From Planctomonas sp. JC2975 (lineage in GTDB: Bacteria > Actinomycetota > Actinomycetes > Actinomycetales > Microbacteriaceae), in assembly GCF_012985205.1 (NCBI RefSeq), contig NZ_JABEKS010000001.1, forward strand, positions 1,984,001-2,048,000: DNA of 64,000 nucleotides, in the 5' to 3' direction. The notes beneath the pieces are model-generated. The model saw nothing but the letters and a program-made list of their open reading frames with translations, did no database searches and was not told the origin of the DNA. The position numbers were made by a program, and so were the translations under genes. Shown here piece after piece: positions 53,152 to 56,890 of the stretch. Each line of letters opens with the position of its first letter. Positions within the stretch are counted from its first letter, which is position 1.

Positions 53152-53946
53152 GTGTTCTTCGCGCACCGCAACGGGGTCAGGTGGCCCGCGTGGCCGATCG
53201 TCGCGTTCTACCTGCTCGGCCTCGGCTCGTACGCGTGGATCGAGTTCGGATTCCTCGGCACGTGGAGCACCGAGTTGCGGTGGGCGTTCACCACCAGGGT
53301 CGCGTTCCTCCTCTTCGTGGTGCCGGGGCTTCTCGCACTCGGACGTCCCGTCACGCTGGCGCGCTCCGCGATGTCGGGGCTGCCTGCGCGGGTGTTGGAC
53401 CGCATCCTGAAGTCGTGGCCCATACGGATGATGGGCAACGCGATCTTCGCGCCGGTCGTCGCCCTGATCGGCTTCAGCCTCTTCCTCACCCCGTTCGCGG
53501 CGGCTCTGCGCCTCGATCCGGCATGGGAGGCCGCCATCTCCATCGGCATCCCGTTGGTCGGCCTGCTGATGGTGCTGCCCGTCACCGACAGCGGACTGCT
53601 GCGCACGAGCCTCTTCATCACAGCGGAGTTCATGCTCGCGTTCGTCGAGCTGGTCCTGGATGCCGTGCCCGGCATCCTGCTGCGCCTCAACGAGTCCGTG
53701 CTCGACCATGCACCGCCCGTCATCGGGCTGCTGCCGCCGTGGTTCCCCTCCCCGCTTCACGACCAGCACCTGTCGGGCGACTTCCTGTGGTTCATCGCCG
53801 AGATCGCGGATGTGCCGGTGCTGATCATCCTGTTCATCCGGTGGATGCACTCCGATCGCCGCGAAGCCAAGAAGATGGACGAGCTCACGGACGAACAGAT
53901 GGACCAGCTCACGCAGGAACACCTGAAGCGGTACCAGCAGCACTGA
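53152..53946 (+). CDS. Cytochrome c oxidase assembly protein, CtaG/caa3 type
   Basis: 264 residues from a GTG at 53152, with about six membrane helices and a charged, Gln/Glu-rich C-tail. The pattern (TRVAFLLFVVPGLLALGRPVT, LPPWFPSPLHDQHLSGDFLWFIAEIAD) fits the CtaG_Cox11-unrelated caa3_CtaG family. The same frame is open and hydrophobic from about 53070 (LTFLTTFSFNPYALGVIIVAGGLYG with a break), which looks like the missing first helix, so the true start is probably upstream at a non-ATG codon such as CTG; I could not fix it. The 337-base interval 52815-53151 otherwise holds only the divergent promoters. Confidence 0.78.
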   Translation: MFFAHRNGVRWPAWPIVAFYLLGLGSYAWIEFGFLGTWSTELRWAFTTRVAFLLFVVPGLLALGRPVTLARSAMSGLPARVLDRILKSWPIRMMGNAIFAPVVALIGFSLFLTPFAAALRLDPAWEAAISIGIPLVGLLMVLPVTDSGLLRTSLFITAEFMLAFVELVLDAVPGILLRLNESVLDHAPPVIGLLPPWFPSPLHDQHLSGDFLWFIAEIADVPVLIILFIRWMHSDRREAKKMDELTDEQMDQLTQEHLKRYQQH

Positions 53947-53987: not shown

Positions 53988-54060
53988 GAAACAGCAGTGG
54001 TCACGCTCTCGCGCCGAGAACAGCAGGATGTCTGCTGTTGCGGACGACATCTGCTGTTTC
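53988..54060. repeat. Structured repeat, left copy (mirrors 55027-55099)
   Basis: Four octamers: AACAGCAG at 53990 and 54019, CTGCTGTT at 54032 and 54051. The inner pair forms an 8-bp hairpin with a 5-base loop; the outer pair extends to a 10-bp stem (53988-53997 with 54051-54060). The reverse complement of 55027-55099 has the same octamer spacing (29, 13, 19) and agrees at about 59 of 73 positions by eye. Confidence 0.88.
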
Positions 54061-54088
54061 CGGAACGTCTGGGGATCCCCGGCGGCGA

Positions 54089-54922
54089 TCACGGATGTCC
54101 GGCCGCAAGCAACGTGCGCACCACACCGATGCACCCGTCGATGTCGGACATCACCTGGTTGTAGTCGAAGCGATGCGACCTCATGCCCCGTCGGACCAGT
54201 TCTGCCTCTCGTGTCCGATCACGGGCACGCTGCTCTGGCGTCGAATGCCACCGATCACCGTCGACCTCGATCACGAGCCACCCATTGATGACGAGATCCA
54301 CTCGGCCTACACCCGTGATGCTCACCTGGACAGCGACCGACCAGCCCTCCTGGCGAGCCGCGAGACGGAACAGTGACTCGATGCCGGACTCGGCCCGAGC
54401 ATCGATGAGCCGCCGGAGGGGTGCACAACGTCGGGGCAGCCGGGCGAACAGCTCGTCGAGACGCGACGCAGGAAGTACCGCGGTGTACAACGCGCTGTCC
54501 ACGGATGCGATGAAATGTTGCGACTCCACCCGTGGAGCCAGGTGCACAAGCGCGTCCAGTACATCAGCTCGCCAGCGAATGCCTGTCGGCCACGAGAAAT
54601 CGTGAGGATAGATCCGATACTCGGCGTCGGCGAGTTCCGGCAATCTGCTCGTCCCCGGCTTGACGGAGACGCAGAGTCCGCCGTTGTGGGATACCCAGAT
54701 TCCGTGAGAGCGGAGGGCACTCTCGCCGCCGAGGAGTCCGCCTAGCGTCACGGCGCGGACGGCGGCGGGGTCCGCGTACGGAGATGCGACCCACGAGCGA
54801 CGAACCACCCGGCCACCATCGTCCACGTACGCCGCGATTGCGCGAGCACCGCAACCCAACTGCCGTAGCTGATTCCGGGTCGCCAGACCGCCGTATCTCT
54901 TGAGTGCAAGGGCGACATCCAC
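54089..54922 (-). CDS. AbiEi-like/DUF559 endonuclease-domain protein
   Basis: 277 residues. The N-terminal part (LKRYGGLATRNQLRQLGCG, then VVRRSWVASP) resembles the winged helix of AbiEi-type antitoxin/regulator proteins. The C-terminal part (about 178-275) is a DUF559/Vsr-like PD-(D/E)XK fold: E182 in ESGIESLF, D209 in GRVDLVI, E219 and D221 in VIEVDGDRWH, then an Arg-rich helix and HRFDYNQVM. Such proteins occur in many copies in actinobacteria and their role is unsettled. The gene sits alone inside mirrored 73-base repeats, 28 bases before one and 104 bases from the other. Confidence 0.8.
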   Translation of the reverse strand: MDVALALKRYGGLATRNQLRQLGCGARAIAAYVDDGGRVVRRSWVASPYADPAAVRAVTLGGLLGGESALRSHGIWVSHNGGLCVSVKPGTSRLPELADAEYRIYPHDFSWPTGIRWRADVLDALVHLAPRVESQHFIASVDSALYTAVLPASRLDELFARLPRRCAPLRRLIDARAESGIESLFRLAARQEGWSVAVQVSITGVGRVDLVINGWLVIEVDGDRWHSTPEQRARDRTREAELVRRGMRSHRFDYNQVMSDIDGCIGVVRTLLAAGHP

Positions 54923-55026
54923 CGCATCACCGTGGCAGGAACGATCAACCGTGCAGCGTTCGACTGCACCCTCTGGGGACTATTGGTGATTCGGTGCCCC
55001 TGTGGAGGCCAGCTCCAGCGGCTACC

Positions 55027-55099
55027 AGAACAGCAGATGTCGTCGAGAACAGCAGACATGCTGCTGTTTCCGACGCTAGAGCGCGATCACTGCTGTTCT
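55027..55099. repeat. Structured repeat, right copy (mirrors 53988-54060)
   Basis: AACAGCAG at 55029 and 55048, CTGCTGTT at 55061 and 55090. Inner 8-bp hairpin with a 5-base loop and an outer 10-bp stem (55027-55036 with 55090-55099). The flanking bases of the outer stem differ from the left copy on both arms in a paired way (AG/CT here, GA/TC there). Confidence 0.88.
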
Positions 55100-55191: not shown

Positions 55192-56757
55192 CTACTTCAC
55201 CAGGGGGAACAGGATCGTCTCGCGGATGCCGAGGCCCGTCAGCGCCATCAGCAGCCGGTCGATGCCCATGCCCATGCCACCGGTCGGCGGCATGCCGAAC
55301 TCGAGGGCGCGCAGGAACTCCTCGTCGAGGCGCATGGCCTCGTCGTCGCCTTGCGCGGCCAGGCGCGCCTGCTCGACGAACCGGTCGCGCTGCACGACGG
55401 GGTCGACGAGCTCGGAGTATCCGGTGGCGAGCTCGAAGCCGCGAATGTAGAGGTCCCACTTCTCCACGACGCCCGCCTTGCTGCGGTGGGCACGCACCAG
55501 CGGCGACGTGTCGACGGGGAAGTCGCGCACGAAGGTCGGACGCTCCAGTCCGCCCTTCACGAAGTGCTCCCACAGTTCCTCGACGTACTTGCCGTGAATG
55601 GGGTGCTTCACCTCGATCTCGACCAGCTCGGCGAGGGCGGCCAGCTCGTTCAGGGGCGTCTCGGGAGTGATGTCCGTGCCGCCGGTCCACGGCACGCGAC
55701 CTGCGGCGACGGCTGCGGTGAGGGCATCCGTGAGGCTCTCGTACATCGACACCGAGTCCCACTGGCCGCCGAGGTCGTAGTCGGTGCCGTCCGCCCACGT
55801 GACGACGTGGCTGCCGCTGGTGGCCCACGCCGCGTCCTGGATGAGCGTCTGCGTCAGCTCGGCCATCGTGTTGTAGTCGCCGTACGCCTGATAGGCCTCG
55901 AGCATCGCGAACTCGGGCGAGTGCGTCGAGTCGGCGCCCTCGTTGCGGAAGTTGCGGTTGATCTCGAACACCCGGTCGATGCCGCCGACGACGGCACGCT
56001 TGAGGAAGAGCTCGGGCGCGATGCGCAGGAAAAGATCGGTGTCGAACGCGTTCGAGTGCGTGACGAACGGACGAGCGGATGCCCCGCCGTGCATCGTCTG
56101 CAGCATCGGGGTCTCCACCTCGATGAAGCTCCGCGACGCGAAGGTGGCGCGCAGCGACGCGACCGCCTTGGCGCGGTTCAGCACATTGGTGCGGGCCTGA
56201 TCGCGCGCGATGAGGTCGAGGTAGCGGCTGCGCATCCGCGTCTCTTCGGAGAGCTCGTTGTGCAGGTTCGGCAGCGGCAGGATCGCCTTGGCGGCGATAG
56301 CCCAGTCGTCCACCATGACGGAGAGCTCGCCGCGACGCGAGGAGATGACCTCGCCGTGCACGAAGACGTGGTCGCCCAGGTCGACGAGCTCCTTCCAGCG
56401 CGCGAGCGACTCCTCGCCCACCGCGGCCAGCGAGACCATGGCCTGGATGCGGGATCCGTCTCCGGCCTGCAGGGCGGCGAAGCAGAGCTTGCCCGTGTTG
56501 CGCAGGTGCACGATGCGGCCGGCGATACCGACGAAGACGCCGGTCGTGGCATCCGCTTCGAGACCGCCGTACTCGGCGCGCAGCTCCGGAATGGTCGAGG
56601 TGATCGGAAGGGTGACCGGGTAGGCGCCGCCTGCGGCATCCGCTTCGGCGTTCAGGCGCTCGCGCTTGGCGAGCCGCACGGCCTTCTGCTCGCCGACCTC
56701 GTCAGCGCTCAGTTCGTCGGTACGGTTCTCGTCTGCACGACGCTCGTCGGTCGCCAT
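55192..56757 (-). CDS. lysS: Lysine-tRNA ligase, class II
   Basis: 521 residues. An OB-fold anticodon domain (about 70-170) is followed by the class II catalytic domain: motif 1 near SFIEVETPMLQ, motif 2 FRNEGADSTHSPEF, motif 3 GMGMGIDRLLM at the C-terminus. It charges tRNA-Lys in the cytosol. The N-terminal 45 residues are acidic and variable, as in other actinobacterial LysS. The panC cluster lies upstream in the same direction, with a short REP-like sequence between. Confidence 0.97.
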   Translation of the reverse strand: MATDERRADENRTDELSADEVGEQKAVRLAKRERLNAEADAAGGAYPVTLPITSTIPELRAEYGGLEADATTGVFVGIAGRIVHLRNTGKLCFAALQAGDGSRIQAMVSLAAVGEESLARWKELVDLGDHVFVHGEVISSRRGELSVMVDDWAIAAKAILPLPNLHNELSEETRMRSRYLDLIARDQARTNVLNRAKAVASLRATFASRSFIEVETPMLQTMHGGASARPFVTHSNAFDTDLFLRIAPELFLKRAVVGGIDRVFEINRNFRNEGADSTHSPEFAMLEAYQAYGDYNTMAELTQTLIQDAAWATSGSHVVTWADGTDYDLGGQWDSVSMYESLTDALTAAVAAGRVPWTGGTDITPETPLNELAALAELVEIEVKHPIHGKYVEELWEHFVKGGLERPTFVRDFPVDTSPLVRAHRSKAGVVEKWDLYIRGFELATGYSELVDPVVQRDRFVEQARLAAQGDDEAMRLDEEFLRALEFGMPPTGGMGMGIDRLLMALTGLGIRETILFPLVK

Positions 56758-56816
56758 GGTTCCTCTTCGTTCTCGTTCTCGGATGCTGATCGTTCGGGCG
56801 CATTCACCGGTCGTCG

Positions 56817-56841
56817 GCCGGCTTCGACAAGCTCGACCGGC
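56817..56841. repeat. REP-like sequence GCCGG-cttcgacaagctcga-CCGGC
   Basis: Five-base arms enclose CTTCGACAAGCTCGA. Sequences of this type are, from general experience, dispersed in many copies in intergenic regions of actinobacterial genomes. It lies in the 133-base gap between panC and lysS. Confidence 0.4.
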
Positions 56842-56890
56842 AGTGGTGCGTGGCTGCTGCTGTCGTCAGGTTCAACCAGCAGCGTGCCGC

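Follow-up and report, generated by a model that had tools for sequence, protein, structure and literature searches.

A predicted AbiEi-like nuclease gene of Planctomonas sp. JC2975 is bracketed by inverted copies of a dispersed four-box palindromic element

Why does a single gene for an AbiEi/DUF559 protein of Planctomonas sp. JC2975 lie between two mirrored, structured repeats? The initial annotation of the window (the whole 64,000-nucleotide stretch analysed here) had considered a REP/RAYT-like unit, a mobile cassette, and a pair of terminators of the neighbouring genes ctaG and lysS. Our results point to a nuclease gene of the chromosome that is accompanied by a dispersed palindromic family of its own, a partnership resembling that of REPINs and RAYTs with an unrelated enzyme, and we give this reading a probability of roughly 0.6. 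The features of the locus are as follows.

53152..53946, + strand: flanking gene of the Caa3_CtaG family, outside the unit
53988..54060, + strand: left (ctaG-side) four-box palindromic element, boxes at 53990-53997, 54019-54026, 54032-54039 and 54051-54058, with dispersed copies elsewhere
54089..54922, - strand: predicted AbiEi-DUF559/MTES_1575 nuclease gene, 277 aa, putative GTG start
54401..54922, - strand: N-terminal part (about residues 1-174, boundary approximate) with a predicted AbiEi-like fold (Foldseek 6y8q, AbiEi_4), proposed as the box-binding module
54092..54400, - strand: C-terminal part (about residues 175-277), predicted Vsr/EDxHD-type nuclease domain (MTES_1575, 3hrl, 3r3p, invariant residues)
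55027..55099, - strand: right (lysS-side) four-box palindromic element, an inverted copy, boxes at 55090-55097, 55061-55068, 55048-55055 and 55029-55036
55192..56757, - strand: flanking gene lysS, outside the unit

The octamer boxes start at 53990, 54019, 54032 and 54051 in the left element (spacing 29/13/19) and at 55029, 55048, 55061 and 55090 in the right element (19/13/29, the mirror of the left). These coordinates and the alignment of the arms confirm the two inverted repeats with matching 29/13/19 spacing that had been described at first. The arms, 53990-54058 and 55029-55097, are 69 nt long and 86% complementary; the high similarity seen by eye was correct, and the computed value replaces the estimate of about 81%. 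The inverted-repeat score of the pair was 47.0, against a maximum of 15.8 among 378 random flank pairs of identical geometry from the same window, and both copies folded as single-stranded DNA well beyond shuffled sequences (z -5.6 and -5.2). Eight of the nine copies of the octamer AACAGCAG/CTGCTGTT within the 64-kb window sit in the two flanking elements. The bracketing pair is a real feature, well above chance. The remaining listed ORFs between the repeats all overlap the AbiEi/DUF559 gene. A search of Rfam at curated thresholds returned tRNA as the sole match in the window, with group I and group II intron families absent. Two further details were observed. The spacer CGCTCTCGCG (window 53988-54060), common to many Humibacter elements, folds into a third, small hairpin that sits between outer and inner stems and was not seen among the elements of the sister genus g26. 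Near lysS, at about 56815-56845 of the window, a CTTCGACAAGCTCGACC stretch resembles the short repeat CTTCGACAGGCTCAGG downstream of lysS in genome G054, a kind of repeat that we take to be common in the family.

The enclosed protein matched MTES_1575 in Pfam (E 1e-11, residues 190-265) and DUF559 (E 1.9e-4), together with a weak AbiEi_4 match under its cut-off at residues 7-36; AbiEi_4 was matched in 11 of 41 aligned homologues. The structure model from the 41-sequence alignment had a mean pLDDT of 96.1, and its top Foldseek match was the AbiEi antitoxin 6y8q (E 3.9e-4, TM 0.48 on target). Foldseek gave no aligned range, and the position of AbiEi_4 at residues 7-36 was the reason for assigning the match to the N-terminal part. 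The next match was 3r3p, the EDxHD homing endonuclease I-Bth0305I (E 6.5e-3, probability 1.0, TM 0.77 on target), and 3hrl was also found (E 0.071). The sequence profile over the C-terminal part matched the same two structures (3hrl 2.9e-8; 3r3p 1.1e-4). The columns G180, E182, Q199, D209, D221, H226 and G246 are invariant across the 41 sequences, among which E182, D209, D221 and H226 are presumably the catalytic residues of the EDxHD/Vsr type. The prediction is thus of an AbiEi-like DNA-binding part fused to a nuclease domain of the Vsr/EDxHD fold. Pfam and domain searches gave no match to a known transposase, and no HUH match is listed among its hits, which are MTES_1575/DUF559 in Pfam and AbiEi and EDxHD in the fold search. 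No AbiEii toxin gene adjoins it, the neighbours being lysS and the Caa3_CtaG gene, and a second close copy of the gene was not found in the genome.

The repeat occurs far beyond this locus. In the genome of Planctomonas sp. JC2975 (G000; 4.36 Mb, 11 contigs), a BLAST search for the left element gave 12 rows at 11 places (E <= 1e-4), and some of the weaker matches had the same skeleton with different octamers. Of 71 elements found by BLAST, 53 went into a covariance model (18 matches shorter than 64 nt were excluded from the alignment), which was searched against 150 Microbacteriaceae genomes under stricter filters, with the best 32 first-look candidates scored per genome; the resulting counts are lower bounds, and weak families may be missed. 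At E <= 0.001, at least 24 rows were found in G000, 31 in Humibacter albus DSM 18994 (G001), 17 in Humibacter sp. RRB41 (G004), and 19 and 15 in G029 and G105, two genomes of g26. After hand-merging of overlapping rows on opposite strands, at least 21, 31, 16, 16 and 14 places remained, respectively, both flanks being included wherever the gene is present. Matches at this threshold occurred in 7 of the 150 genomes, two of which had weak rows alone (2 and 1), and there was none in the other 143 among the best 32 candidates scored per genome; on the same basis, strong matches were confined to two genera. The many genomic copies that had been predicted are therefore present by both BLAST and the covariance model, and the repeat is not restricted to this locus, as had also been considered, but forms a dispersed family in its own genome and in relatives. 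The element is about 73-75 nt long, has four boxes, and is nearly always intergenic. A conserved GTAG or CGTC tag was absent from the consensus of the 53 aligned elements and, by eye, from their contexts.

The boxes of an element change in concert. Among the 53 aligned elements, identity between boxes of the same element was 0.81-0.88, against at most 0.73 when boxes were dealt at random. In comparison with shuffles that do not preserve the relatedness of the elements, the 18 stem pairs were paired in 89.7% of cases versus 70.1%, and the paired cells held 184 two-sided changes versus 71.0 expected, a number reached by 0 of 500 shuffles. Changes on both sides were found in 15 of the 18 stem pairs; 29 of 500 shuffles did as well, and this measure of pairing is weaker than the others. 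G-T and A-C mismatches in the stems were about equally common (37 and 45), and thus give no pointer to RNA folding, in a weak test with transcription direction uncontrolled. One element of G000, C1:2498912-2498985 (L010), is a mosaic with the boxes AACAGCAG, AACAGCAG, AACCGGAG and AGCAGGAG, and is possibly a transitional copy.

These data bear on the proposal that the repeats are terminators, or mRNA-stabilising hairpins, of the flanking genes. The elements can fold, and their gene context, called with a simple in-house gene finder for 71 elements including 10 DUF559 flanks, also speaks for such a role: 31 lay between convergent genes, 32 between tandem and 3 between divergent ones, 1 was in an ORF and 4 were undefined. 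However, no terminator-like site was found in this stretch of the window, the four-box architecture carries a species-specific sequence, and the near-equal mismatch counts, weak as that test is, lend no help to a role in RNA. The same element also stands at many unrelated intergenic places, and a paralogue of the gene has an unrelated pair of its own (see below). The suggestion that the two copies merely end ctaG and lysS was therefore abandoned, and we consider a terminator or hairpin role very improbable.

An orthologue of the gene is the neighbour of lysS in each of the five genus genomes, those of the other four being 57-76% identical to that of the window, and every one of them stands between inverted elements built in the same way, with flank scores of 25.4-47.0 against a control maximum of 18.2. 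The flank octamer is AACAGCAG in G000 and mainly AACAGCAG in G003, a MAG of the same genus; it is AACCGGAG in G002, AACAGGCA in G004, and AACAGGAC/AACATGCC in H. albus. Queries of each flank type were searched over the five genomes, where one element may match more than one query. In the order G000, G001, G002, G003 and G004, the AACAGCAG type gave 12, 11, 1, 9 and 0 rows (E <= 1e-4), and at E <= 0.001 the G002 type gave 5, 0, 16, 3 and 0, the G004 type 0, 0, 3, 0 and 8, and the G001 type 1, 9, 7, 0 and 0. Several copies of the own flank type are therefore dispersed in each genus genome. Other types are abundant as well in two of them. H. albus has many AACAGCAG elements, yet the flanks of its gene beside lysS are of the ACATG/ACAGGAC type. 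G002 carries three or more types beyond its own flank type or types close to it. A strict rule of one type per gene in the lysS lineage does not account for these other types. The loci of the abundant AACAGCAG family of H. albus are L041, L044, L047, L049, L051, L053 and L055, with no matching flank on the lysS side.

H. albus and G002 have types in abundance that their DUF559 flanks beside lysS do not match, which might mean that another enzyme, such as a RAYT or an insertion-sequence transposase, spreads the elements, and that the DUF559 gene is hemmed in by them or exploits them. The majority of dispersed copies, which do not flank a DUF559 gene, would suit that explanation too. The homologues of the gene argue the other way. 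G000 has a DUF559 paralogue at C1:1887500 that is 34% identical and flanked by an unrelated 74-nt pair, and the element of this type was found at 13 places in G000 (2 of them the flanks) and 3 in G002, and was absent from five other genomes searched (E < 0.01). Two paralogues in one genome thus stand with two families. Among 81 Microbacteriaceae homologues (14 of 14 genus rows and 67 of 93 non-genus rows, leaving out the 25 lowest-ranked and G058, which is near a contig start), the ungapped flank-pair score exceeded the 99th percentile of controls in 41, compared with 3 of 280 controls, and exceeded every control in 34. The significant pairs comprised 9 of 14 homologues in the genus and 32 of 67 outside it. 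With a gapped score, 37 of 81 were above the 99th percentile and 31 above the highest control. The 280 displaced control pairs were drawn from 40 of the 81 loci, and were used instead of a mismatched-flank null, which was dropped as contaminated by orthologous lysS/ctaG pairs. The differing pairs around 41 of the 81 homologues, the two families of the two paralogues, and the lack of a conserved GTAG or CGTC tag in the aligned elements make another enzyme a doubtful explanation, to which we give a small share of the probability. The concern that DUF559 genes in relatives might lack such flanks applies to the 40 of 81 homologues with no significant pair in the ungapped test and not to the other 41, and the expectation that copies often flank DUF559 genes holds for the genus orthologues and other homologues, not for most dispersed copies.

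Some additional arrangements were recorded around these homologues. Paralogue-type pairs 1.1-1.4 kb apart at L304 (G000 C3:115537-116649) and L305 (G000 C1:1927269-1928661) enclose no DUF559 match, and one of these stretches reads like what we assume to be a signal peptidase gene. The left flank at L065 (G122) appears to consist of two tandem four-box elements beside a DUF559 homologue.

The lysS locus was surveyed in 26 other Microbacteriaceae genomes, 24 of which gave the locus, with one cut by a contig end. A DUF559 match within 1.5 kb of lysS was present in 2 of the 24, G029 and G066, and a DUF559 gene is adjacent to lysS in Agromyces cavernae too. The site is usually unoccupied outside the genus, which implies a past gain or loss of the gene. 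In the genus, the locus was occupied in five of five genomes with no empty ctaG-lysS site. Empty sites in close relatives, which had been proposed as a mark of mobility, are thus missing within the genus; further out, 22 of the 24 lysS loci are without the gene. Relative to lysS, the gene of G066 (loci L062/L237) points the other way from its counterparts in Humibacter, G029 and Agromyces, an arrangement that a flip of the segment between the repeats, or its independent placement, would produce.

A recently mobile cassette with terminal inverted repeats would explain why inverted repeats bracket the gene, and would accord with the unoccupied loci of the family and the inverted gene of G066. 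It is contradicted by the same lysS-side position in all five species and the position next to lysS in A. cavernae, G029 and G066, by the absence of any match to the gene among the plasmid records (E 1e-10) and the phage records (E 1e-5), and by the lack of a second close copy in the genome. This idea was not borne out by the occupied genus loci, and we now give it hardly any weight. The gene is best read as now mostly inherited vertically and domesticated.

The sister genus g26 offers a comparison with and without the gene. In G029 the order is lysS, a small ORF, an element, the DUF559 gene, an element and the next gene. G105 has the same flanks at lysS without an adjoining DUF559 match, and its whole genome has no DUF559 match at E <= 1e-25. 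By eye, half an element is left at this site, the closest of the gene-less ones, broken at the palindrome centre, which the covariance model does not score; the site looks like gene loss. Departures from the boxes numbered 16 of 364 in G105 (13 of 14 elements) versus 13 of 420 in G029 (15 of 16 elements), so that no clear decay of elements followed the loss, in a comparison where badly decayed elements would escape model-based finding. Unless the gene was lost recently, the little decay in G105 is mild evidence that the gene does not maintain the elements constantly.

Elements sharing an intergenic site across species were identified by flank alignment. One site is common to G000, G001, G002 and G003, a second to G000, G001 and, on right-flank evidence only, G002 (L133), and two further sites to G000 and G002. 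The 11 elements at these four sites comprise 8 of the own flank type, the mosaic at G000 C1:2498912, and 2 of another type, namely that of G000 at the four-species site (AACAGG boxes) and L133 of G002. At a fifth site, G000 C3:58413 and G001 have the same element type in opposite orientation. G002 L097 was rejected as the counterpart of G000 C1:2498912, since flank alignments put it across the gene; judging by the right flank only, the counterpart is L133, and an orientation flip noted at this site was withdrawn. Spacers at the shared Humibacter sites (11 pairs at four sites) gave no signal of inheritance, with an identity of 0.605 versus 0.592 for random between-species pairs, and 681 of 2000 draws as high. 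The Humibacter elements were therefore either overwritten where they stood or came separately to favoured sites.

A different picture was obtained in g26, where a counterpart in G105 was found for 9 of the 14 dispersed elements of G029, all nine in the same orientation. At the shared sites (7 pairs without a shift; 2 of the 9 pairs and one element per genome were left out for a 1-nt shift), boxes were 95.9% and spacers 64.5% identical, versus 94.4% and 43.3% between different sites within G029 and 92.3% and 46.0% within G105. The places of the g26 elements look inherited and their boxes selectively kept. This is what would be seen if the elements were regulon or chromosome-organisation sites, that is, host-useful binding sites of a domesticated AbiEi-nuclease, kept by selection and not copied, with the flank pair serving autoregulation; AbiEi antitoxins are described as autoregulating through inverted repeats in the part of PMC7319586 consulted here. 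However, the gene is flanked by a downstream copy as well as an upstream one, several box families coexist within one genome, and the Humibacter spacers fit replacement or independent arrival better than simple inheritance. Sites kept only by selection are in our judgement unlikely, though they deserve real weight. Several observations count against our preferred explanation itself: the abundant types of H. albus and G002 that differ from their lysS-side flanks, the mosaic element and the two of another type among the 11 at shared sites (the latter two lower our confidence slightly), the elements kept by G105 after the gene was lost, the 40 of 81 homologues with no significant pair, and the Humibacter spacers without a signal of inheritance. 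In addition, no dispersed element was established as present in one species and cleanly absent from another.

The gene and the elements are associated, and from this we infer that the protein of this nuclease-repeat partnership recognises the repeat and binds, cuts and copies it. The AbiEi-like part would read the octamer boxes, probably as a dimer on inverted boxes, and the Vsr/EDxHD domain would nick or cut the element. Repair or strand transfer could then copy the element to new places or overwrite diverged copies, and in this scheme box sequence and protein specificity would drift together. A wider proposal is put forward tentatively, at less than even odds: AbiEi-DUF559/MTES_1575 proteins may be a large undescribed actinobacterial class of repeat-tending nucleases, each with its own element population, in which break-and-copy overwriting of diverged copies (a homing-like concerted evolution) makes the boxes switch together with protein specificity. 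Such a class would be a second, independent origin, besides REPINs, of stable intragenomic sequence populations in prokaryotes.

Several known systems share single features with this unit. Type IV AbiE toxin-antitoxin systems resemble it in the predicted N-terminal fold (6y8q) and in belonging to a family whose AbiEi proteins are described as binding inverted repeats (PMC7319586, seen in part), but here there is no adjoining AbiEii toxin and a nuclease domain is fused. EDxHD homing endonucleases have the same predicted nuclease fold (3r3p), and PMC3943268 describes I-Bth0305I as forming a dimer on a target that spans nearly 60 bp, a size comparable to the 73-nt element. In contrast, there is no intron or intein here, the gene does not split its own site but has a whole element on either side, and an AbiEi-like part is fused; the gene may be a free-standing homing gene acting elsewhere. 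Insertion sequences and MITEs with terminal inverted repeats differ in that the enclosed protein here has no match to a known transposase. Excerpts of PMC3733652 describe dispersed palindromes, families of terminal inverted repeats around transposase genes, and CGTC repeats apparently without a dedicated transposase. The likeness to CGTC-tagged REPs and TIRtrons lies in the dispersed palindromes, and the difference is that TIRtrons carry tyrosine transposases; the word DUF559 is absent from the main text of that paper. In the open-access literature, seen partly at the level of titles, no earlier description of such repeats with DUF559 or MTES_1575 genes was found (PMC3710099 included), nor any such system under REP-associated nuclease, actinobacterial REPIN-nuclease, Microbacteriaceae palindromic repeats or homing-endonuclease REP.

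The closest comparison is with REPINs and RAYTs, and the likeness suggested at the outset has been strengthened by the many copies and by the pairs around orthologues and other DUF559 homologues. As far as the sections of the sources consulted describe it, the RAYT gene is single-copy and vertically inherited, with co-evolved dispersed extragenic palindromes (PMC8049555, PMC8266576), and is flanked by its repeats (PMC3733652). Similarly, the gene studied here is flanked by inverted repeat copies in all five genus genomes, and the copies are dispersed and mostly intergenic. As for the match between repeat type and enzyme lineage, each genus genome has its own flank type dispersed, and H. albus and G002 also have abundant others. 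The differences are that the enzyme here is predicted to be of the AbiEi-Vsr/EDxHD type and there is an HUH/Y1 tyrosine transposase, that the elements here have four boxes with 29/13/19 spacing in tens of copies per genome, and that no conserved GTAG or CGTC tag stands at the palindrome foot. Because enzyme and tag differ, the unit is not a member of the REPIN/RAYT systems, despite features that point to a similar way of working. If the partnership is real, an unrelated nuclease would underlie a second system of this kind, showing that such populations can arise more than once; it would also suggest a role for DUF559/MTES_1575 proteins of unknown function, and the species would form a natural series for comparing the gene, the box sequence and the shared sites.
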